The position numbers and the translations under genes were made by a program. The notes under the pieces are model-generated. The model saw only the letters and a list, made by a program, of their open reading frames with translations. It ran no database searches and was not told where the DNA came from. Below are positions 1-55,020 of a stretch of DNA of 64,000 bases, piece by piece. Numbering within the stretch: the first letter of the stretch is position 1; the number at the start of each line of letters is the position of its first letter. Origin of the DNA: Sneathiella glossodoripedis JCM 23214 (GTDB lineage: Bacteria > Pseudomonadota > Alphaproteobacteria > Sneathiellales > Sneathiellaceae); assembly GCF_000616095.1 (NCBI RefSeq), contig NZ_BAMS01000002.1, forward strand, positions 186,001 through 250,000, written 5' to 3'.

Positions 1-1161
1 TGTGGTCCGACAGGAATGAATATTATCCTGCCGTCCATCTCATCCTATCAGGTTGCCTTTGAAACAGATTATGCTACCGCGCAGCTTACGCTGACCTTTT
101 ATCTGGCCGCGGTGGCGATCGCACAGCTGATTTATGGCCCGTTGTCGGACCGGTTTGGTCGTTTGCCCATTATCTATTTTGGATTGAGCGGATTTGTCGT
201 GGGCAGTGTTTTATGTCTGTTGGCGCAATCCGTTGAGATGTTACTGGTTGGACGTATCGTGCAAGCCTTTGGTGGCTGCGCAGGAATGGTTATGGGACGG
301 GCCATGGTGCGCGATAAATACAGCGCTGAACAGGCGACTTCGGTTATCGCTTATATGACCATGGCGATTGTTCTGGCGCCGACACTGGGCCCGGCATTGG
401 GCGGTGTGCTGGAAGATTTCTACGGTTGGCGCAGCAGTTATGTTTTTGTTGTGGTCATGGGCACGCTGGTGCTGCTGGTGGTCAGCCGATCCTTGCAGGA
501 AACCCTGCCGGTAAACCGGCGTCAGACGACACATTTCAAAGGGATGATCAAATCATTCGGATATCTTTTAGGAAACGCAAAATTTAACGCCTATGCCTTT
601 ATGGTTGCGTTCAGTACGTCTGCGTATTTTGCTTTTCTGGGTGGGTCATCTTATGTGCTGATCGATCTGATGGGGGCGACGGCGAGTGAGCTTGGTCTCT
701 ATTTCGTGGAAGTATCAGCCTTTTATATTTTAGGAAATTATTTGACAGCCCGCCTCAGCACCCGATTTGGGGTAAACCGGTTAATTGCGCTTGGAACGGT
801 GCTGTGCCTTTCAGGTGCGAGCATGATGGTTTTCTATGGCTATACAGCGGAACACACTCATTTCACATTTATTGCCATGATGTCGGTGATTGCTTTTGGC
901 AACGGATTTTGCGTCTCTTCAGGGATGGCGTCAGCCATTGGAGCGGATCCTGCACGTGTTGGGGCAGCGTCCGGGCTTGCCGGATTTATGCAAATCGGCT
1001 TTGGCTCGCTTGCAACTTTGATCGTGGGCAGTCTGTTTACAGTCTTTCCTGATACATCCATGCCGCTTTTGCTAACTGTGTTTGGGTGTTGTGCAATTTC
1101 GCTATTTTCATTTGCGTTTGGACAGTGGTGGGCCCACCGCGGAGACCGCGTTCTCGCCTGA
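1..1161 (+). CDS. Bcr/CflA-type MFS drug efflux transporter, 5' end cut by the window
   Basis: Inner-membrane proton-driven efflux pump of the 12-TM drug:H+ antiporter group. The frame is open to base 1. The first visible residues (GPTG-MNIILPSI) match the end of the first membrane helix of Bcr/CflA proteins, so the ATG at 16 is internal and the true start lies upstream. The motif GPLSDRFGRLP is the MFS loop 2-3 signature, and ALGGVLEDFYGWR resembles motif C plus the following loop. About eleven hydrophobic segments follow. It ends 75 bases before an acyl-CoA ligase on the same strand. The substrate cannot be told. Confidence 0.88.
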   Translation, partial: CGPTGMNIILPSISSYQVAFETDYATAQLTLTFYLAAVAIAQLIYGPLSDRFGRLPIIYFGLSGFVVGSVLCLLAQSVEMLLVGRIVQAFGGCAGMVMGRAMVRDKYSAEQATSVIAYMTMAIVLAPTLGPALGGVLEDFYGWRSSYVFVVVMGTLVLLVVSRSLQETLPVNRRQTTHFKGMIKSFGYLLGNAKFNAYAFMVAFSTSAYFAFLGGSSYVLIDLMGATASELGLYFVEVSAFYILGNYLTARLSTRFGVNRLIALGTVLCLSGASMMVFYGYTAEHTHFTFIAMMSVIAFGNGFCVSSGMASAIGADPARVGAASGLAGFMQIGFGSLATLIVGSLFTVFPDTSMPLLLTVFGCCAISLFSFAFGQWWAHRGDRVLA

Positions 1162-1236
1162 TCGGTATCTTTGTGCTTTACCTATATTCGATTTTTCGGA
1201 TACTGGAGAAAAGACAAATGACAGGGGGAGATGTTC

Positions 1237-2796
1237 ATGCGAATTTCACAGCTACTGGAGCGGGCAGCACAAACAAAAGCGGATGCCATTGCGACCATAT
1301 TTGGCGATCGTACCAGGACCTATTCCGAGTTTCGCCATCGCGTCCAGAAATTTGCCGGTGCACTGAGAGAGCTTGGGGTCACAGATGGCGAGAGAGTCGC
1401 CATTTTGGCGCAAAACTCGGATCGGTATCTTGAGTTTTATTACGCGACCCCTTGGGCGGGCGGTGTGTTTGTACCGGTAAATACGCGACTTGCTGTCCCT
1501 GAATTTGCCTATTGGCTTAACGATAGTGGTTCAGAAATTCTGCTGGTGGATGATGCGTTTGCACCTGCGGTTGCTGAGCTTCGTAATCTGGTCAAAGGCC
1601 TGAGGACAGTGATATATATTGGGGATAAGGAGACCCCAGAGGGGCTTTTGAATTATGAAGACCTCATAGCAGAGGCTGCGGCGGTAGAGGATGCCGGGCG
1701 GCACGGGGATGATCTGGCCGGGCTTTTTTACACGGGCGGGACCACGGGGGTTTCCAAAGGGGTGATGCTCAGTCATAACAATCTTGTCGTTAATACGCTG
1801 AATTCCATGCCAGCCTATGGGTTCACCGAAGAAAGCGTTTGGCTGCATGCGGCGCCCATGTTTCATATCGCTGACGGGGCCGCTGTTTTTGCCGCCGTGA
1901 TGGGGATGAGCCGTCATGTGTTCATCCCCGGCTTCACACCAGAGCTGACATTGCAGGCCATTGAAAATCACGGGATCACTGAAACGCTTCTGGTACCAAC
2001 CATGGTCAATATGCTGGTTAATCATCCCAGAGTACGCGATTTTGATCTGAGAAGCCTGAAAAATATTGTTTATGGCGCGTCCCCCATGCCAGAAGCGGTT
2101 ATTGTGAAAGCGCTTGAGGAGTTGCCCGGATGCGGGTTCACCCATGCTTATGGGCAAACAGAATGTGCGCCGCTGGTGACCTATACGGGGCCAGAATATC
2201 ACGTGCTTAGCGGGCCAAATGCGGGGCGTTTCAAATCTGCAGGTCGGGCGGCCTATTCGGTGGAAGTGAAAATATTCGATGATGATGACAGGGAAGTGGC
2301 GCCAGGGACTGTCGGTCAGGTCTGTGTGCGCGGCGACAATGTCATGTTGGGATACTGGAACAAACCCGAGCAGACGGCCGAGGCCCTTAAAGGCGGGTGG
2401 ATGCACACAGGCGATGGCGGTTACATGGATGAACAGGGCTTCGTCTATATTGTAGACAGGGTCAAGGACATGATCATTTCCGGCGGGGAAAACGTCTATT
2501 CAGCGGAAGTGGAAAATGCCATCTATCAGCATGAGGCGGTTGTTGAATGTGCCGTAATTGGTATTCCTCATCAGAAATGGGGGGAACAGGTTCACGCAGT
2601 TGTTCGCCTGGAAGAGGGGGCTGAAGTGAGCGAGGCGGATATCATCGAGTTTGCGCATACATTGATTGCCGGTTTCAAATGCCCGCGCAGCGTTGAATTT
2701 ACCAAAGATCCGCTGCCATTGTCCGGGGCAGGAAAGATCCTCAAAACTGAACTTCGCAAACCCTACTGGGCGGAGCAGGAGAAGGCGGTTAGCTGA
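1237..2796 (+). CDS. AMP-dependent acyl-CoA synthetase (long-chain fatty acid/carboxylate CoA ligase)
   Basis: Adenylates a carboxylic acid and transfers it to CoA. About 519 residues, normal for the ANL family. Visible motifs: P-loop YTGGTTGVSKGV (about residue 164), YGQTEC (A5), TGDGGYMD (A7), DRVKDMIISGGENVY (A8) and the catalytic-lysine segment GAGKILKTELRK near the C-terminus. An in-frame ATG at 1231 abuts the GGGGGAG Shine-Dalgarno run; the ATG at 1237 has proper spacing and is preferred. It is followed by a strong terminator. Closest in style to medium/long-chain acyl-CoA ligases; the substrate is unknown. Confidence 0.88.
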   Translation: MRISQLLERAAQTKADAIATIFGDRTRTYSEFRHRVQKFAGALRELGVTDGERVAILAQNSDRYLEFYYATPWAGGVFVPVNTRLAVPEFAYWLNDSGSEILLVDDAFAPAVAELRNLVKGLRTVIYIGDKETPEGLLNYEDLIAEAAAVEDAGRHGDDLAGLFYTGGTTGVSKGVMLSHNNLVVNTLNSMPAYGFTEESVWLHAAPMFHIADGAAVFAAVMGMSRHVFIPGFTPELTLQAIENHGITETLLVPTMVNMLVNHPRVRDFDLRSLKNIVYGASPMPEAVIVKALEELPGCGFTHAYGQTECAPLVTYTGPEYHVLSGPNAGRFKSAGRAAYSVEVKIFDDDDREVAPGTVGQVCVRGDNVMLGYWNKPEQTAEALKGGWMHTGDGGYMDEQGFVYIVDRVKDMIISGGENVYSAEVENAIYQHEAVVECAVIGIPHQKWGEQVHAVVRLEEGAEVSEADIIEFAHTLIAGFKCPRSVEFTKDPLPLSGAGKILKTELRKPYWAEQEKAVS

Positions 2797-2850
2797 AAAA
2801 TCTCTGTGAAAAGCAGGCTGAAGCACCACCATAGAGCGTTACAAAAAAAA

Positions 2851-2881
2851 AGCAGCGAAGGGGTTATCTTCGCTGCTTTTT
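2851..2881 (+). terminator. Rho-independent terminator after the acyl-CoA ligase
   Basis: A perfect 10-bp stem (AGCAGCGAAG with CTTCGCTGCT, 7-base loop) is followed by five T. A run of A precedes the stem, so it may also act on the other strand. Confidence 0.9.
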
Positions 2882-3502
2882 GGAGATGCGTATTTCCATC
2901 AATCCGCATTGATGAAGATCCAGCATCGGGCTTTATCGTTAACAACAGGTTAATTTTTGTGAAATTTATTAGGTTTTTATTAAAAAACCTGATTAATCGG
3001 CGCTGTTAAGGCTTTTTGATGCTTCCAATGCGATGCAAGCGACCGCTTTTAATCAAATAAAATCAGACTTTTACACTGAATAGTTCTCATGTTTGTGAGG
3101 ACTAGGAAGCCATAAAGTCTTAAAAACTGCGAGATTCGCTTTGATTCGTAAAGCTACAGGCGGGAATATTCGAGATTCTACAACTAAAAATTACAACTCA
3201 AAACCGAATGCAACTTTTACTTTTTATTAACCATGTTCATTAACCAAATTTCGTCCTAAATCAACAAAATGTGCCCGATGAATGTGAGTTTCACTTGAGA
3301 AATGCAGGGGAAAAGAGGGATACTGCGCATATTAGATTTCAGAAGTGAAATTCAGTCCAGAAGTTTTCCAGAAGTACAAAAATTAATTAGTGAAACGCAC
3401 GCGATGAGCGATTGTGCACGCGTGAAAAGGGTCGTTTGTGGTTGTCATACCCCCGACAGGCAAAAGTGTGAAACATAGCAAGCGGGTCTTATGGAGAAAA
3501 AG
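2882..3502. other. AT-rich non-coding stretch upstream of the VPLPA-CTERM cluster
   Basis: About 620 bases without a credible gene. It is AT-rich, with several TTAACC/TTAA steps and a small A/T inverted repeat near 2971-2990. I see no RNA gene, no insertion sequence and no convincing sigma-54 promoter (GG-N10-GC). It probably holds the promoter and long leader of the first exported protein. Confidence 0.5.
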
Positions 3503-4222
3503 ATGATAGGGAAATTGTTAAAAGGGGCGGCGATTGCTGCCGTTACATTTGCTTTGGCGTCGGTCGCGAACGCTGGCTCTCTTACTGTTGTCGGTGGTGC
3601 TGATCACAGCCTTTCAGGTTTTGATCTTTCTGGTACAACAGGATTGAATAATGGCGATGGGGTCAAATTGTTTGATGGTGATAATGATCTTGTTTGGCTT
3701 TTTCCGCCAATTTTTGCGGATGACGGTGTACCTGACACTGATGGTTTAAATGGGTTGCAGCTTTCAGGGGCACCTAGCACACTTCGTTTTACCTATTTGG
3801 GTAGTGAAGCTGGCGATTTGAACCGTGCATTTTATTCCGGAACATCACCAGCGACACTTCTTTTCGACACCTCAAGTGGTATTGGAACTTTCACAGACAT
3901 TTTAATTGGCACAGATGGTGCTGTTCCTTTTTACTTTGAGAATGAGGGCGGTTATAGCTGCGCTATCATCTTTTGCTGGGAAAATGATGATGAACAGGCA
4001 AATAACGAAGATGGTATAGACTGGCATGTTAGTTTGGCTTTTTATCAGGAAAGTGCAACTTCAGTGATCGCCTTGTTTGGTGATGGTTCTGGTGATTTGG
4101 ACATGGATGATATGGCAATGCGCATTTCAGTTGTTCCTTTGCCACCTGCGCTGTTGATGTTTGGTGCAGCTTTAATTGGGCTGGGCTGGTTCCGTCGCCG
4201 CAAAATGAGTGGAACTGCATAA
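3503..4222 (+). CDS. Exported VPLPA-CTERM sorting-signal protein 1
   Basis: Secreted protein of about 239 residues with a signal peptide (MIGKLLKGAAIAAVTFALAS, cleavage after ANA) and the tripartite C-terminal sorting signal VPLPPALLMFGAAL...GLGWFRRRK, the VPLPA-CTERM type processed by exosortases. The middle is rich in D, G, S and aromatic residues and is not recognisably related to the next three proteins. An upstream in-frame ATG exists at 3491, but GGAG at 3493-3496 lies 6 bases before the ATG at 3503. First of four tandem sorting-signal genes. No exosortase is in the window. Function unknown; likely surface or extracellular-matrix protein. Confidence 0.85.
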   Translation: MIGKLLKGAAIAAVTFALASVANAGSLTVVGGADHSLSGFDLSGTTGLNNGDGVKLFDGDNDLVWLFPPIFADDGVPDTDGLNGLQLSGAPSTLRFTYLGSEAGDLNRAFYSGTSPATLLFDTSSGIGTFTDILIGTDGAVPFYFENEGGYSCAIIFCWENDDEQANNEDGIDWHVSLAFYQESATSVIALFGDGSGDLDMDDMAMRISVVPLPPALLMFGAALIGLGWFRRRKMSGTA

Positions 4223-4253
4223 GACATCACTTTAAGCCATTTGAACTTTTAAC

Positions 4254-4284
4254 GCGGGAAATGCCTTGGTATTTCCCGCTTTTT
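4254..4284 (+). terminator. Rho-independent terminator after VPLPA-CTERM protein 1
   Basis: A perfect 9-bp stem (GCGGGAAAT with ATTTCCCGC, 8-base loop) is followed by five T. Confidence 0.88.
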
Positions 4285-4455
4285 CATTGCGGATTTGGCT
4301 ATAATTCTGATGGCATGGCGGCTATGCGGCCGGGTCATGGCAGTTGGGTATATTTTGCTTGTATGAAATGCTTTAATCCGATAGTTAAGCAGCAGAAATG
4401 CGCAGGCTGTAAGTTCTTGGTTTTAGAAGTGAGATACATGCGCAAGAGTTGATTA

Positions 4456-4484
4456 CTCTTTTGTGGTGATTGGTCACAAAAGAG
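4456..4484 (+). promoter_or_regulatory. Perfect 10-bp hairpin in the leader of VPLPA-CTERM protein 2
   Basis: CTCTTTTGTG pairs perfectly with CACAAAAGAG around a 9-base loop. The 3' arm runs straight into the purine-rich ribosome-binding region, and no T-run follows. This suggests a 5'-UTR structure or an operator rather than a terminator. Confidence 0.45.
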
Positions 4485-4501
4485 GGGTAAGGATTACAAT
4501 A

Positions 4502-5122
4502 ATGATTAGAATTTCCGGATTGTTGATCGCAATCGTCGCTGCGTTTTTGACCGTTGCGGGTTCCGCCAATGCGGCAACCATGTGGTTCACAAGTGGAAAT
4601 GGGACCGCCGGTGCCAATTCCTATAGCTTTACTGTTGATGGTGTCACAGCCGTTGCAACCCCGATGGGCAGGTCCAATGGCGGGCAAACTATTCACCAAT
4701 ATAGCACTGGGCTTGGTGTCTACAGCAGCGATTGTAATTACAGCTGTTCCACTGACAGTGACCATCAGGTGGATGGTTATATGTATGGCGAAGCGGTTCG
4801 GCTGCGCTTTAGTGAGCCGGTTCTGTTGACGTCCATCCTGTTTTCCTATGTGGGATGGAATGATGATTTCAAATACCGTGTGGACCGCCAAAGCTGGTCA
4901 GCCAGGCTGGATATTCCAAATGACAGCAGCTATGAATTTGCGGGCGATGGTATTTTGGGGCAGGTCTTTCGTATTGGTGCATTCGACTATAATGATGAAT
5001 GGAAGCTGCGCGGCGTGAGCTTTAGCACCATCAGCGCGGTTCCGTTACCGCCAGCATTGCTGATGTTTGGTGCAGCGCTTGCAGGCCTTGCGCTGTTCCG
5101 GCGGGGTAAAAAAGCCCTGTAA
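4502..5122 (+). CDS. Exported VPLPA-CTERM sorting-signal protein 2
   Basis: About 206 residues: signal peptide (MIRISGLLIAIVAAFLTVAG, cleavage after ANA), a beta-rich body, then the sorting tail VPLPPALLMFGAALAGLALF-RRGKK. The body shares a plan with protein 3: a (T/S)SGNG opening, a 'VDGVTAVATP' strand, GLGVYS, the segment VDGY, then FSYVGWNDDFKYRV and a closing LRGVSFS strand. The start at 4502 is chosen from AAGGA at 4489-4493; the upstream in-frame ATG at 4463 lies inside the hairpin and has no ribosome-binding site. Own terminator follows. Probably anchored or released by an exosortase encoded elsewhere. Confidence 0.85.
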   Translation: MIRISGLLIAIVAAFLTVAGSANAATMWFTSGNGTAGANSYSFTVDGVTAVATPMGRSNGGQTIHQYSTGLGVYSSDCNYSCSTDSDHQVDGYMYGEAVRLRFSEPVLLTSILFSYVGWNDDFKYRVDRQSWSARLDIPNDSSYEFAGDGILGQVFRIGAFDYNDEWKLRGVSFSTISAVPLPPALLMFGAALAGLALFRRGKKAL

Positions 5123-48502: not shown

Positions 48503-49216
48503 ATGACGGATACACAGAATGAGCAGATTTTCGATACCTTGTTTTATGAAAGAAAATCTGTAAGAGCTTTCAGTGAAAAGCCTGTGCCCGTTGCGCTGAT
48601 TGTTCGTATTCTGGAATTGGCCTCACAGGCGCCAAGTGGCGGAAATATGCAGCCTTGGCAGGTTCACGTTTTGACGGGAGCTACAAAAGATAAGTTATCA
48701 CAGGCCTTAAAGAGCGCCTATAGCGCAAAGCCAAGTCAGGCGAAAGACGACTATGCCTATTATCCAAGGGAGACGCTCCAACCCTATACGGATAGAATAA
48801 AAAAAGCCGGTGAGGATTTATATGCATGTGTGGGTATTGCACGGCGCGATATTGCAGCCCGGCGGAGGCAGCAAATGCGAAACTACGAGTTTCATGGGGC
48901 GCCTGTTGGGTTAATCCTGACTATGGATCGCAAGCTTGAAGCTGGCTCTTATGTGGATATGGGAATTTATATCAGTCATATTCTGTTAGCAGCCCAAGCG
49001 TTGGGGCTTGCAAGCTGTGCGGCTGCGAGTTTTATCAGTTACGCCGATGTGGTGCGAAAGGTTTTGAAATTACCTTCGGAGCAAAAGGTTGTTTGCGGTG
49101 TGGCGCTTGGATATGAAGACAAGGAGCACCCGTTGAATAAAAGGACGCGTGTGCGAGCGGACTTAAGCGAGTATGTCGCCTGGCATGTGGCAGAAAATGA
49201 CCAAGAACCAGATTGA
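48503..49216 (+). CDS. Nitroreductase-family FMN oxidoreductase
   Basis: 237 residues. 'RKSVRAFSEKPVP' and 'LASQAPSGGNMQPWQVHVL' are the FMN-binding motifs; 'DMGIYISHILLAAQALGLAS' and 'VCGVALGYEDKEHPLN' close the fold. Reduces nitro, quinone or enone-type substrates with NAD(P)H. GAAGGA precedes the ATG. It overlaps the downstream AMP-ligase gene, so the two are probably translationally coupled. The true substrate may be the product of that operon and not a nitro compound. Confidence 0.9.
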   Translation: MTDTQNEQIFDTLFYERKSVRAFSEKPVPVALIVRILELASQAPSGGNMQPWQVHVLTGATKDKLSQALKSAYSAKPSQAKDDYAYYPRETLQPYTDRIKKAGEDLYACVGIARRDIAARRRQQMRNYEFHGAPVGLILTMDRKLEAGSYVDMGIYISHILLAAQALGLASCAAASFISYADVVRKVLKLPSEQKVVCGVALGYEDKEHPLNKRTRVRADLSEYVAWHVAENDQEPD

Positions 49217-50651
49217 GCCAATTCATTCACGTCTGCGTCAGATTGCATCTGCCAGTCCAGAGAAGCACGCCATCATTAGCGGGGGCGAGAGACTGACATA
49301 TGAACAGTTTTTCAACCACTCCCGCCAATGGGCATCTGTTTTCAAAAAGCATAACTGTAAATCCGTAGCTGTTATTTTAACCAATGGAACCCAGCTGCCT
49401 TGTCTGTTTGTGGGCGCAACCTTTGTGGGCGTTAATGTTTGTATTTTGAGCCCGGACTGGCCAGCTGGTCAGATCGAAATTCTTCTGAAAAGAATAAGGC
49501 CGGATATGATTGTGGATGAAAACACAATTTCAGAATTTTTAGGAAGTGCAGAAATTTTGCCTGTACAGGCTGAGGAGTTTGACATTGACGCCGCCTTTTA
49601 TACCGGTTTCACGTCAGGAAGCAGTAGTATTCCAAAAGGCTTTGTGCGGGATCAACGCAGTTGGCTGGAGAGTTTTCTCTCTGATCAGGAATATTTTTCA
49701 TTCAAAGAGGGCGATATCTTCTTTGTCATGGGAAGTTTAACTCATTCCCTGCCTTTATATGGCGTTATACGTGGCCTGTATTTGGGGGCGACGGTGTACT
49801 TGGCCAATGGTTTTCATACCAGGCGACTGCTTCAAGATTGTGTGGATTGCACGGCGACGGTTATATACGGCACCCCAACCCAATACAGAGCGTTGCTGGA
49901 TCAGGCAAATAAAGATGGGGTTCAGCTAAAATCGGTTCGAATGACTTTATCCGCAGGCTCCAAATTTCCTGATAAATGGTTGGAGGATATGGGAGCTGTA
50001 TTCAGCCATGCGAAGCATTTTGAGTTTTTTGGGACCTCGGAATTATCCTACATTTCAGCTCGTGAAATAAAGGGCCAAGACCCGCAAAATCTGGTTGGTT
50101 TGCCTATGCCATCTGTTGAGGTTCGTATTCTGGACGAAGAGGGCGAGACGGTACCGGCGGGGGAGATTGGAGAAATTTACGTGAAAAGCCCGTTTCTGTT
50201 TCAGGGATATGTAGGGGATACAGGAGTAGCGACACGAATTGGCTGTCGGTTTAAGGACGGGTTTTTATCGGTAGGTGATAGAGGGCATCTGGATACAGAA
50301 GGTCAGCTTTATATTGATGGGCGGATGGATCGGCTTTTTCAGGTGTCGGGGAGAAATATTCATCCGGAGGCAATTGAGGCAGCGCTTAGCGAAATCGCGG
50401 GGATTGAGGCTGCCATGGTTTTTGGCGTGGAAGATAAACTGCGCGAAAACAGAATTGTCGCGATACTAAAAATTTCAGCCCCCTTAAAGCTTCGTAATAT
50501 TCGCAGTCAATTGCGTGATACCCTTCCGCCATATATGATTCCCACAGATTATTTCATATGTGAAGATTGGCCGCTAACGCATTCACAGAAAACAGATTTT
50601 CCAAAATTGAAAAAATTATATCTGGCCAATAAGCTTAGGAGATACCTATGA
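49197..50651 (+). CDS. AMP-dependent acid ligase
   Basis: About 484 residues. P-loop TSGSSSIPKG, A5 FFGTSELSY, A7 VGDRGHLDTEG, A8 GRMDRLFQVSGRNIHPE and the A10 catalytic Lys (PLTHSQKTDFPK) are intact. Activates an unknown carboxylate as acyl-AMP. The start is uncertain: ATG at 49173, 49185 and 49197 all lie inside the end of the nitroreductase gene; 49197 is used here. The stop overlaps the thiolase start (ATGA). More divergent than the window's other two acyl-CoA ligases and shorter, so perhaps a biosynthetic acid:CoA or acid:carrier ligase. Confidence 0.86.
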   Translation: MTKNQIEPIHSRLRQIASASPEKHAIISGGERLTYEQFFNHSRQWASVFKKHNCKSVAVILTNGTQLPCLFVGATFVGVNVCILSPDWPAGQIEILLKRIRPDMIVDENTISEFLGSAEILPVQAEEFDIDAAFYTGFTSGSSSIPKGFVRDQRSWLESFLSDQEYFSFKEGDIFFVMGSLTHSLPLYGVIRGLYLGATVYLANGFHTRRLLQDCVDCTATVIYGTPTQYRALLDQANKDGVQLKSVRMTLSAGSKFPDKWLEDMGAVFSHAKHFEFFGTSELSYISAREIKGQDPQNLVGLPMPSVEVRILDEEGETVPAGEIGEIYVKSPFLFQGYVGDTGVATRIGCRFKDGFLSVGDRGHLDTEGQLYIDGRMDRLFQVSGRNIHPEAIEAALSEIAGIEAAMVFGVEDKLRENRIVAILKISAPLKLRNIRSQLRDTLPPYMIPTDYFICEDWPLTHSQKTDFPKLKKLYLANKLRRYL

Positions 50652-51787
50652 GTGAGGCTTTTATCATCGCAGCCAGACGGACCGCCGTCATGCCCATTAA
50701 TGGGGCCTTTTCGGAGTTGGAAGCCTTTGAGTTGCTCTCACCGGTGATAACGGCCCTGTTGCAGGATGCGGATATGGACGCAAGTAGGGTAGACCGGGTG
50801 ATTATGGGAAATGCCCTGTCAGGAGGGGGAAATGTCGCACGAGTTGCAGCGCTGGATGCGAGGTTGAAGGAGTCAGTTTCCGCTTTAACCGTTGATACCC
50901 AATGTTGCGCTGGGCTTGATGCAGTTGGTCTGGCTAGCGAAATTGTGAAAAGTGGTGCTGCAGACGTCATTGTTGCAGGGGGCGTTGAGTCATATAGCCG
51001 TGCCCCGCGCCGTATTCGCCGGGCAAAAACTGCAAATGAGCAGGATGCGGAATATGAACGTCCCGCTTTTACCCCGTGGGCGGACCGTGATCCGGACATG
51101 CTGGAAGCGGCAGCGAGACTTGCCAAGGACTTACAGATCAGTCGCAGCCTGCAGGATGATTTTGCTATGGAAAGCCATCAAAAGGCGCTTAAATTCCGCG
51201 AACAGGTTGGCGCCGAAATTGTCCCGCTTCTGGGACAGGTCAATGACGGGGCGACACGGGCGCTGGGGAAGGGATTATGTGACCGGCTGCCCGGCATTGC
51301 TGGTGAAGCAGGATATGAGCTGACATCGGCAAATACGGCGTTGAAGGCCGATGCCGCAGCGGCTGTGCTGGTCGTGAGTGAAAATGTTGTATCAGAGTAT
51401 ACTGGTCACCTAAATAATCCCTGTGAAATTGCGGGATATACAACATGTGGAGCAGATCCGGAAAACCCTGCTCTGGCGCCTATATCAGCTTTGAAAGCTT
51501 TGTTGGATCAAAGTGAATTGAGTGCAGGGCAGATTGATGTTGTAGAAATGATGGAGGCATTTGCTGTACAGGCGATGGTGTGCCTGCATAGAAGTGGGCT
51601 TGCAGGGCAACCTTTCAATTTGGGCGGCGGGGCGCTGGCACGTGGGCATCCGATTGGGGCGTCGGGGGCGATAAACGTGGTTCGCCTGTATCATCAATTA
51701 CAAGCCTTTCCTGCGGGCAGCAACGGGATTTCGGCCATCGCTGCTGCAGGTGGGCTTGGGAGCGCCATGCTCTTGCGACAACCGTGA
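50648..51787 (+). CDS. Thiolase-like enzyme with altered active site
   Basis: 379 residues, thiolase fold complete. The nucleophilic Cys is present (VDTQCCAGLDAV, near residue 87) and so is GGALARGHPIGASGA with its catalytic His. The usual NEAFA is MEAFA, and the last-block Cys (CxxGGxG) is Ala (AIAAAGGLGSAML). Loss of that acid/base Cys argues against ordinary reversible thiolysis and fits a one-way Claisen condensing or acyl-transfer enzyme. Coupled by ATGA overlap to the AMP ligase; no ribosome-binding site of its own beyond AGGAGA inside that gene. Confidence 0.88.
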   Translation: MSEAFIIAARRTAVMPINGAFSELEAFELLSPVITALLQDADMDASRVDRVIMGNALSGGGNVARVAALDARLKESVSALTVDTQCCAGLDAVGLASEIVKSGAADVIVAGGVESYSRAPRRIRRAKTANEQDAEYERPAFTPWADRDPDMLEAAARLAKDLQISRSLQDDFAMESHQKALKFREQVGAEIVPLLGQVNDGATRALGKGLCDRLPGIAGEAGYELTSANTALKADAAAAVLVVSENVVSEYTGHLNNPCEIAGYTTCGADPENPALAPISALKALLDQSELSAGQIDVVEMMEAFAVQAMVCLHRSGLAGQPFNLGGGALARGHPIGASGAINVVRLYHQLQAFPAGSNGISAIAAAGGLGSAMLLRQP

Positions 51788-52379
51788 TTACGCTGCTTTT
51801 AATCCCATTTTATGAGCGGATTGAAACCACTTTTGCGCCTTTTCCTCGGGTGCTTCCGTTGCGGGTGCAAAATTTTTGAATTTCTTCGGTTTTATACCGA
51901 CGAATTTGAGCACCTGTCGTTCCATCTGCTTTTTAACGGCTGCATTATAAAATACGGACAGGGCAAGAGGGGGTGTCTGATGTCAGCAGGATACTTCCGG
52001 TTTTACCGGTAAGCAGGGGCGCAGGCAGTCCCAACAGTGATTTATTGCGAGTGTCAAACGCTATTCCGGGTAATAAAGTACGGTCAATCAATCCTTTAAG
52101 TTTTGAAGGTATACCTCCCCACCAAAGGGGCATTGCGATGACCAAATGATCACACCATTTCAGGTCCTCTACAAATCTCTGTAAGCCTTCTTCCAAAGGT
52201 TTGCTGTGCTCATAATTTCCGTCACCAAAATCGGGATCGAAAGTCATTTCTCCCAGATTATAGCGGCGGACTTGGTGGCCGGCTTGTTCTGCGCCGCGTT
52301 GATAGGAAGTAATTAATCCGGAGGAGAGGGAATTGTCGGCTGGATGGCCGTTTAGTGCTAGTATATGTTTAGATGTCAT
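51788..52379 (-). CDS. NAD(P)H dehydrogenase (quinone), flavodoxin fold (frameshift in this sequence)
   Basis: About 197 residues. 'ILALNGHPADNSLSSGLI' binds the flavin phosphate and 'MPLWWGGIPSKLKGLIDRTL' is the family signature. The first frame ends at 51945 after DTPSCPVRIL; a one-base shift near 51957 gives VFYNAAVKKQMERQVLKFVG and a normal C-terminus ending next to the thiolase stop. Two-electron reduction of quinones or other electrophiles. Divergent from a TetR gene with shared operators, so it is probably derepressed by its substrate. Confidence 0.86.
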
Positions 52380-53143: not shown

Positions 53144-55020
53144 ATGACGCCATCACTGGATCAGCCATTACGCAACTTGCAGGACGTAATTGCCTTTGAA
53201 CAGACGCCGGAGGAGGTATGGCTGAAGCCGCAGACGATCTATTCAGCGTTTCGTCAAACAGCAGAGAATTTTACTGATAAGGATGCCCTTATTGTTCAGC
53301 CCGCGGATGATGTAATGGGGGATGGTCAGCATATCAGCTATAGTGAGCTATTAGGGCGTGTCCATCAAGTTGCGAATATGCTGCTGGCAGCCGGGTTAAA
53401 GCCTGATGAGACGGTTACGCATCTGTTACCGCAATCCGCGGAGGGTATATTCACGCTGATCGGTGCAGAAGCGGTAGGGATTGTAAATGCGGTCAATCCG
53501 CTGCTTGAGCCCGCACATATTATTGGAATTATGAAAGCTGCAAACAGCAAGGTTCTGATTGTACCGGGACCTGACGTCAGTAATGAAATCTGGGAAAAGG
53601 CTCGAGCGATTGCCGATGAATTTCCGGATTTGAAAGCTGTATTTGTGGTGGGCAGCGGTGCGGGTTGTGATGGCAAACGTTTTCGATCCTTTGCAAGTGA
53701 AATGAACGCTCAGACAGATGCTGAGATAGTTGATTTGCCCGATCGCGGACTGGATGATGTGGTGGGGTATTACCATACTGGAGGTACGACCGGTGTGCCA
53801 AAACTGGTCCCTCACACAAATCGAATGCAACTGATCCAACTTGCTGCCACCGGATTTCTGGTTGGCTATACGGAGCGTGATATTATGATTGCGGGCTTGC
53901 CGCTATTTCATATCAGTGGATCGATTGTTGGGGGTCTGGTTCCTTTATGCCAAGGCTCCACACTGGTAATTGCAAGCCCCTTGGGGTGGCGAGGGCCATC
54001 CCTTGTAATGAATTACTGGCGGTTGGTTGAGAAATTTGGTCTCACCATATTGGGAACGGTGCCAACTGTGTTATCTGCCTGCTGAATGTCCCTGTAAATG
54101 GTGCGGATATTTCAAGCTTGCGGATCGGAATTACGGGCGGTTCAGGATCGCCACTTGAAGTTTTGAACGCGATCACGCGTATTAGCGGTGTTCCCATGCT
54201 GGAAGGCTACGGCATGACCGAGGTGACCTCTTACACAACACTGATGCCACGTGACGGCGAACTCCGCTTTGGCTCTGTTGGCATTCGGGAACCTTATGCG
54301 CAAATCAAAGCGGTAATTGTCGATGAGAAAGGCAGTTATGTCAGGGATGCCGAAATAGATGAGGTTGGGGTTATTGTCATGCGTGGCACCTGTGCCATGG
54401 CTGGCTATGCGCAAGATCAACATAACGCTGGTGTATTCTTAGAAAATGGCTGGTTGAATTCAGGTGATCTTGGACGCATTGACGCTGATGGATATATTTG
54501 GCTAACGGGAAGATCAAAAGATCTGATCATTCGCAGTGGACATAATATTGATCCAGCCCTGATAGAAGAGCCGCTGCATGAACATCCTGCTGTGGAACTG
54601 GCCGCGGCGGTTGGACGCCCGGATGATTATGCCGGAGAAATGCCCATTGCTTATGTACAACTGAAACCGGGATTTTCTGTGAGTGAAGAGGAATTGGCTG
54701 CTTTCGCACGTGAAAGAATTCAGGAGCGAGCGGCCAATCCAGCAGAAATTATCCTGATTGAAGAGATGCCGCTTACCGGCGTTGGCAAAATATTCAAACC
54801 GGCCCTGCGCGAAGACGCGGCGCGAAAGGTTTTTGAGGCCGTTCTGAGCGATTTGCAGGATAAGGCTGGCAAGGTCACGATTGAAATGACGAACAGAGCG
54901 AAAACCGGCATGACAGCAATAGTGAGAGTGGGGGCGCAGGCAGATGAAGAATGTCTTGCCGAAATTCGAAAACGGCTTGGTGCTTTTACGGTCGCCCATG
55001 AAATTGACAGGCATGACTGA
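53144..55020 (+). CDS. Acyl-CoA synthetase, ~625 residues (frameshift in this sequence)
   Basis: ANL-family ligase. P-loop YHTGGTTGVPKLVPHT, GYGMTEVTSY (A5), NSGDLGRIDADGY (A7), GRSKDLIIRSGHNIDP (A8) and 'PLTGVGKIFKPAL' (A10). The first frame stops after VPTVLSAC at 54085; one missing C (GCCTGCTGAATG to GCCCTGCTGAATG, near 54078) restores LLNVPVNGADISSLRIG. It has ~100 residues beyond the A10 lysine, longer than a standard ligase, like FadD-type acyl-CoA synthetases with a C-terminal extension. GGGGGAG precedes the ATG. Substrate unknown. Confidence 0.88.

Follow-up and report, generated by a model that had tools for sequence, protein, structure and literature searches.

The DNA analyzed here, called the window throughout, is a stretch of 64,000 nucleotides (nt) from Sneathiella glossodoripedis JCM 23214 (contig C11, positions 186001 to 250000, of the 3.63-Mb genome G000). 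It carries three consecutive plus-strand open reading frames (ORFs), each overlapping the next, for a nitroreductase-family protein (NTR), an acyl ligase of the AMP (adenosine monophosphate)-forming type (ACS), and a thiolase-fold protein (THL) (Table 1). Counted from the first ATG of ACS, the NTR/ACS overlap is 44 nt long; two later in-frame ATGs of ACS, at 49185 and 49197, also overlap NTR, by 32 or 20 nt. ACS and THL overlap by the 4 nt ATGA, and an overlap of the form NTGA was present in 70 of the 85 other loci described below. An earlier, sequence-only reading of this DNA had claimed that all three genes overlap, as was found. The Lys of the C-terminal SxKxD motif of ACS, presumably the catalytic Lys, was present in 88 of 88 aligned rows. 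The three-gene operon contains neither an acyl-coenzyme A (CoA) dehydrogenase nor a 3-hydroxyacyl-CoA dehydrogenase gene.

Table 1. Genes of the NTR-ACS-THL operon and codons of mechanistic residues of THL, in window coordinates
Feature	Position	Strand	Family match or conservation
NTR, nitroreductase-family protein, 237 amino acids	48503-49216	+	PF00881, 113.5 bits
ACS, AMP-forming acyl ligase, 492 amino acids, start inside NTR	49173-50651	+	PF00501 and PF13193
THL, thiolase-fold protein, 379 amino acids	50648-51787	+	PF00108 and PF02803; TIGR01930, 274.3 bits (cutoff, 240.55)
Cys86 codon of THL, nucleophile (Cys89 of the Z. ramigera thiolase)	50903-50905	+	Cys in 88/88 aligned rows
Met302 codon of THL, replaces Asn316 of NEAF	51551-51553	+	Met in 88/88 rows
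His334 codon of THL, GHP motif (His348)	51647-51649	+	His in 88/88 rows
Ala365 codon (GCT) of THL, replaces the acid/base Cys378	51740-51742	+	Ala in 88/88 rows

The alignment from which residues were read consists of the window and 87 further loci, two of these being duplicates. Excerpts of PMC3406046 describe the thiolase of Zoogloea ramigera, in which Cys89 serves as nucleophile and Cys378 as base, and in which the oxyanion hole that accommodates the enolate is made up of Asn316 and His348. Of these four residues, only Cys89 and His348 have their counterparts in THL, and this pattern was the same in every row (Table 1). The invariance of Cys86 is partly forced, because one of the two search patterns includes the nucleophilic Cys; Met302, His334, and Ala365 lie outside both patterns. 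Ordinary thiolase paralogues of the window genome kept Asn and Cys at the two altered positions in all three cases aligned, out of 10 other thiolase-matching stretches in that genome. The sequence-only reading had noticed the retained Cys and GHP His, the Ala in place of the acid/base Cys, and the Met in place of the Asn of NEAFA, all of which were seen. It had assigned the Ala to 51753-51755, an out-of-frame position that lies at G369; Cys378 aligns instead with the codon 51740-51742. It had also held that homologues with the canonical Cys would expose a sequence error. None of the 88 rows has that Cys, and an error at the Ala codon was rejected given Ala in all of them.

An AlphaFold model of THL was obtained with a mean predicted local distance difference test score of 96.1 and a predicted template modeling score of 0.94. 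It matched the biosynthetic thiolase 4n45 with a Z score of 56.6 and a root mean square deviation of 2.0 over 372 aligned residues (32% identity). All of the 50 structure matches listed for THL were thiolases; folds of the OleA and 3-hydroxy-3-methylglutaryl-CoA synthase types were not among them, which excludes nothing. A PHROGs search with THL gave no match. THL thus shares with the biosynthetic thiolases of Z. ramigera and Clostridium acetobutylicum the whole-length fold, the nucleophilic Cys, and the GHP His, but differs from them in having Met and Ala where they have Asn316 and Cys378. According to excerpts of PMC3406046, TLP1 of Mycobacterium smegmatis is likewise a thiolase relative with altered NEAF and CxG motifs; TLP1 has in addition lost the conserved CXS and GHP motifs and shares 15% identity with the Z. 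ramigera thiolase, whereas THL keeps the Cys and GHP. Judged by its residues, THL would not support the ordinary thiolase mechanism. Because both the proton-abstracting Cys378 and the enolate-stabilizing Asn316 are lost, we predict an acyl transferase rather than a thiolase: on the established mechanism, THL should form an acyl-enzyme but not perform Claisen chemistry.

In an order-level sample of 25 genomes, THL was detected (E ≤ 1e-60) in six, all of the genus of the window, and the order NTR-ACS-THL was kept in each of the five other carriers. When public genomes were scanned more widely, at least 523 loci were confirmed, and the 80 best were used. Together with the window and seven loci from further genomes, and after removal of two duplicates, they make up 86 distinct loci. 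The duplicates dropped were L017, the same DNA as part of L011, and L057, the same DNA as part of L014; the same-genus genome G018 has a contig identical to one of a public Sneathiella metagenome-assembled genome (L014, L057). Neighboring genes were assigned by homology, longest-ORF calling being misleading in GC-rich loci. In all 86 loci, the gene immediately upstream of THL was ACS. The sequence-only reading had staked its proposal on conserved gene order, which was found both at this scale and within the genus; a chance neighborhood was rejected on the same grounds. The invariant core is ACS plus THL, usually accompanied by a biotin importer. In a tree of the thiolases, the window protein forms a pair with that of G005 (support 92, no starred set), and most of the rows around them are linked to bioMNY; over the whole tree, bioMNY linkage changes 6 times and NTR presence 11 times.

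Linkage to the importer genes bioM, bioN, and bioY was counted within 6 kb, centre to centre, using hidden Markov models grown from the bioYMN genes of the window genome within the loci, with Pfam checks on representatives only. A complete set was present in 68 of the 86 loci, a partial one in 1, and none in 17. Representative neighbors passed the Pfam cutoffs for BioY (PF02632, 119.6 bits), ABC_tran, and CbiQ; in NCBIfam, models of the energy-coupling factor (ECF) ATPase were best but below their cutoffs. BioY was identified by family match only. For 14 of the 17 loci without nearby bioMNY, the genome does contain BioY (12 of 15 searched, plus the window genome and G005, in both of which bioYMN lies on another contig), and in G118, one of the 12, it lies just past the edge of the locus stretch first examined. 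The remaining three loci are from Tatumella, in whose genomes no BioY was found. There, the gene beside NTR encodes an EamA-type protein 37.5 to 39% identical to BioP (YigM) of Escherichia coli, a different family from BioMNY, and this gene is the only BioP homologue of each of the three genomes at E ≤ 0.001. The one Tatumella protein scanned passed PF00892 and scored 193.8 bits on TIGR00950 (cutoff, 230.2), on which E. coli BioP scores 309.9. As background, 66 of 144 Alphaproteobacteria had BioY. In the genus itself, 6 of the 10 genomes that have ECF-type bioYMN contain the trio, compared with none of the other 14 (Fisher P = 0.0016, ignoring shared descent). We are highly confident that the link between the gene set and biotin uptake is strong. 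Since the gene set travels with biotin importers, imported biotin-like acids, rather than fatty acids, are its probable substrates.

With BioY assigned by family, it might here carry another acid, such as pimelate, lipoate, or a related compound, that is then used by ACS and THL. Against this, Tatumella combines these genes with a protein related to the biotin transporter BioP; moreover, pimelate would be useless for biotin synthesis to the many carriers that are without BioB. We regard another cargo as very unlikely. The importer context also bears on the proposal of the sequence-only reading that the operon is a small biosynthetic unit rather than one for fatty-acid breakdown, a unit that it could not match to a known pathway; the acyl product is taken here to be an unrelated one. 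The coupled operon and the non-ordinary thiolase stand. Consistent with such a unit, no importer is adjacent within the window, and related ligase-thiolase pairs occur without a nearby importer, as on Rhizobium plasmids, where a thioesterase gene accompanies the pair. Against it stands the tie of the gene set to biotin importers: in 69 of 86 loci, bioMNY is present within 6 kb in whole or in part, and in the thiolase tree the window protein and its partner from G005 stand among relatives linked to bioMNY. Nothing was seen that points to a stand-alone natural-product cluster, although no dedicated cluster search was made, and an unrelated product appears highly improbable.

Two further observations concern the importer genes themselves. 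Upstream of bioYMN in L013 (positions 42 to 4849) are an acyl-CoA dehydrogenase gene and two ORFs that, by their first residues, resemble subunits of acyl-CoA carboxylase, a biotin-using enzyme; the bioYMN genes of G005 (L130) have similar neighbors. In 10 of 12 genomes of the genus with a solo BioY, a different, PRK06155-like acyl-CoA ligase stands beside BioY (L131:5525-7848 and L132:7339-9652).

Genes of biotin synthesis were sought in the same genomes. Among the 24 genus genomes, BioB scored above the cutoff in 5, one of which is among the 6 trio carriers. Of 32 named carriers selected by hand from the 80 public loci, 14 have BioB. The trio is therefore not simply a step of de novo biotin synthesis, and this role was rejected for the window genome, in which no BioB above the cutoff was found. 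BioF exceeded its cutoff in 0 of 24 genus genomes; matches below the cutoff, of up to 378 bits, occurred in all 24 and are probably related alpha-oxoamine synthases. Since the module occurs in genomes with and without biotin synthase, it fits the handling of imported biotin or its relatives.

The BioR box TTATNNATAA was found 0 times in the window, compared with 0.82 expected, and the exact box was absent from 11 upstream stretches (2 of NTR and 9 of bioY). Matches with one mismatch preceded 5 of 9 bioY genes and neither of the two NTRs. Between the window operon and the distant bioYMN genes, no shared motif that would indicate co-regulation was found. By eye, promoter-like sequences of the form CTGGACA-N17-TAAAAC were seen before several bioY genes of the genus (L129, L130, L111, L112, and others) and not before NTR.

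Outside the core, the gene content varied. NTR was nearby in 41 of 86 loci, and in 5 of 86 it was fused to the N terminus of ACS, as in the 717-amino-acid ORF of L012 with both domains. The NTR tree shows two groups, one of 33 rows (support 98/99) and the other of 8 rows of the window type, from which two paralogues of the window genome were not separated; given these two groups, the nitroreductase may have joined more than once. Directly after THL, a MaoC-like gene of about 145 codons was found in 10 of 86 loci (e.g., L018:6379-6810 and L046:8148-8585). Eight of the 10 were scanned, with PF01575 above its cutoff in 4 of 4 in one scan and below its cutoff or unmatched in 4 others. NTR and the MaoC-like gene never occurred together (0 of 86 loci; P = 0.0012, ignoring shared descent).

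Ligase, hydratase, and thiolase fold are parts of the beta-oxidation type, which would suit a breakdown of the biotin side chain in which the valerate chain is shortened. A family with an acyl-CoA dehydrogenase member (L013) was also present, in 4 of 87 loci, one of them a duplicate, as counted with not every neighbor in the 87 named. Against such a pathway, none of the 88 rows and none of the 12 plasmid-borne relatives examined has the acid/base Cys, and no gene family beyond BioMNY, NTR, ACS, and THL reached more than 7 of 87 loci in the first family count, the MaoC-like gene, counted later, being the exception. Moreover, the ligase/thiolase pair of Staphylococcus aureus is, in excerpts of PMC6391492, repressed by biotin and hence expressed under biotin scarcity. 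We consider side-chain breakdown very improbable.

Relatives were also found on plasmids, in 23 records, of which 7 were inspected. BioY lay beside the ligase-thiolase pair in 7 of 7: four Azospirillum plasmids have the order ABC-EcfT-BioY-AMP ligase-thiolase (ABC, ATP-binding cassette protein), two Paracoccus plasmids have BioY-ligase-thiolase with a convergent nitroreductase and without adjacent BioM or BioN, and one Marivivens plasmid has all six genes. The Paracoccus arrangement would agree with metabolic trapping, in which ACS locks imported biotin inside the cell by turning it into an adenylate or a CoA thioester, and THL then frees it or passes it to an acceptor, with the vitamin left unchanged. 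An invariant core of ACS and THL beside optional NTR and MaoC-like genes points the same way. So does the other acyl-CoA ligase beside solo BioY, in whose flanks of about 1.5 kb there was no THL match: such a ligase would be expected there because, under trapping, activation drives uptake. Trapping leaves NTR and the MaoC-like enzyme without a role, although NTR has two lineages and perhaps joined more than once. On balance, we consider trapping unlikely.

The bioMNY-linked thiolase of Azospirillum belongs to a second clade, being about 40% identical to THL and closer, at about 60% identity, to the thiolases found on Rhizobium plasmids. Cys, NEAF, and GHP are all retained in the Azospirillum protein, which has Gly at the site of Cys378. 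The clade was sampled by nine chosen plasmid loci, and its motifs (Asn kept, Gly at the Cys378 site) were found in 9 of 9, with Gly taken from the alignment in one and from the motif in the rest. Six of the nine stand next to BioM-BioN-BioY-ACS, namely, four from Azospirillum, one from Shinella, and one from Streptantibioticus (Actinomycetota). Loss of the Cys378 base is thus shared by every biotin-linked thiolase examined, and loss of Asn316 was observed in the clade of the window only. The Gly-type proteins, with Cys, Asn, and His kept, would be the clearest candidates for a condensing enzyme in a repair of biotin, for which the Met/Ala type of the window is less likely. In such a repair, biotin with a shortened or oxidized side chain (e.g., bisnorbiotin) would be imported, activated with CoA, re-extended by the thiolase-fold enzyme, dehydrated by the MaoC-like protein, and reduced by NTR, which would restore biotin. 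The re-extension would use a decarboxylating donor, so that Cys378 would not be needed. Such a repair, with its decarboxylating donor, seems distinctly unlikely to us.

Among NCBIfam models, PRK07638 was best for ACS (301.8 bits; next best, 194) and PRK06690 was best for THL after the general TIGR01930, both far below their cutoffs; we take both to be Bacillus families. In excerpts of three reports (PMC7235819, PMC6391492, and PMC11089781), a ligase/thiolase pair of S. aureus and Bacillus subtilis, yhfT-yhfS, is repressed by BirA together with bioY, and its products are called a putative fatty acid-CoA ligase and a putative acetyl-CoA acetyltransferase. The gene set described here resembles that pair, as excerpted, in tying a ligase and a thiolase to the biotin importer gene bioY, the likeness being by family matches only. 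It differs in that ECF BioM/BioN and an NTR or MaoC-like gene often join it and in that no biotin-regulator site was found (a BioR-type box was searched for). Excerpts of accounts of the biotin genes of Paracoccus and Rhizobium mention bioMNY without the ligase-thiolase pair (PMC4554459 and PMC8914248). Among the papers listed by the library searched, nothing turned up on a proteobacterial counterpart of the gene set or on its chemistry.

Taken together, the module is likely to activate an acyl group and to transfer it by a route other than Claisen chemistry. We propose a biotin-uptake module of which the operon is the metabolic half. A carboxylic acid related to biotin would enter via BioY/BioMN or, in Tatumella, via the BioP relative, and ACS would convert its carboxylate to a CoA thioester (or acyl-AMP). 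THL would then load the acyl group onto Cys86, aided by His334, and pass it on. NTR, or the MaoC-like hydratase in other lineages, may make a further change of the redox or hydration type to the thioester. The most likely purpose would be to salvage biotin vitamers whose side chain has been altered, a capacity that would be useful to organisms unable to make biotin. Activation and Cys-His transfer of an imported biotin-related acid for vitamer salvage is the best of several open readings, and our confidence in it is about even. The outline given by the sequence-only reading, in which an acid is activated, its acyl group transferred, and the product reduced, remains plausible; it lacked the context of the biotin importer. 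NTR is common but lies outside the invariant core.

Several observations weigh against vitamer salvage by a module coupled to uptake. In the window genome, the operon is on contig C11 and bioYMN is on C5, so they are not adjacent. Four of the 10 genus genomes with ECF-type bioYMN carry no trio (E ≤ 1e-60; two are incomplete assemblies), and hence it is not needed for uptake. Upstream of NTR there was neither a BioR box nor a shared motif. Of the 86 loci, 45 have no NTR, and in 35 of these the MaoC-like gene is missing as well. The exact place of the window protein in the thiolase tree is modestly supported (92). Lastly, three Rhizobium plasmid loci of the Gly type combine related ACS and thiolase genes with a thioesterase gene and have no bioMNY within 6 kb, so such ligase-thiolase pairs can serve elsewhere.

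A few features of ACS genes and of the surrounding DNA were also recorded. In several Rhodobacteraceae and Tatumella loci (L059:5844-7001 and L044:5835-7004), ACS is without approximately the first 100 positions of the ligase model, and its GD motif has Glu replacing Asp. Downstream of the operon, the window contains a flavodoxin-like ORF of 144 amino acids (51945-52379), which may be frameshifted because its G005 homologue is longer (240 amino acids). Farther on, a PRK07529-like acyl-CoA synthetase is split over two frames (53144-54085 and 54118-55020), its counterpart in G005 (L010) being a single ORF of 623 amino acids; the split represents a frameshift, a pseudogene, or an assembly error.

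Almost all cells require biotin (vitamin B7), which many environmental bacteria are unable to synthesize. In Firmicutes, a ligase/thiolase pair was already known to be controlled by biotin. Here, such a pair was found in a range of Proteobacteria and one actinomycete, next to biotin importers of two unrelated types, together with extra enzymes and with catalytic losses that speak against the annotated reaction. The name acetyl-CoA acetyltransferase is probably wrong for these proteins. With this importer context and these losses, their function can therefore be tested with biotin vitamers and for acyl transfer.

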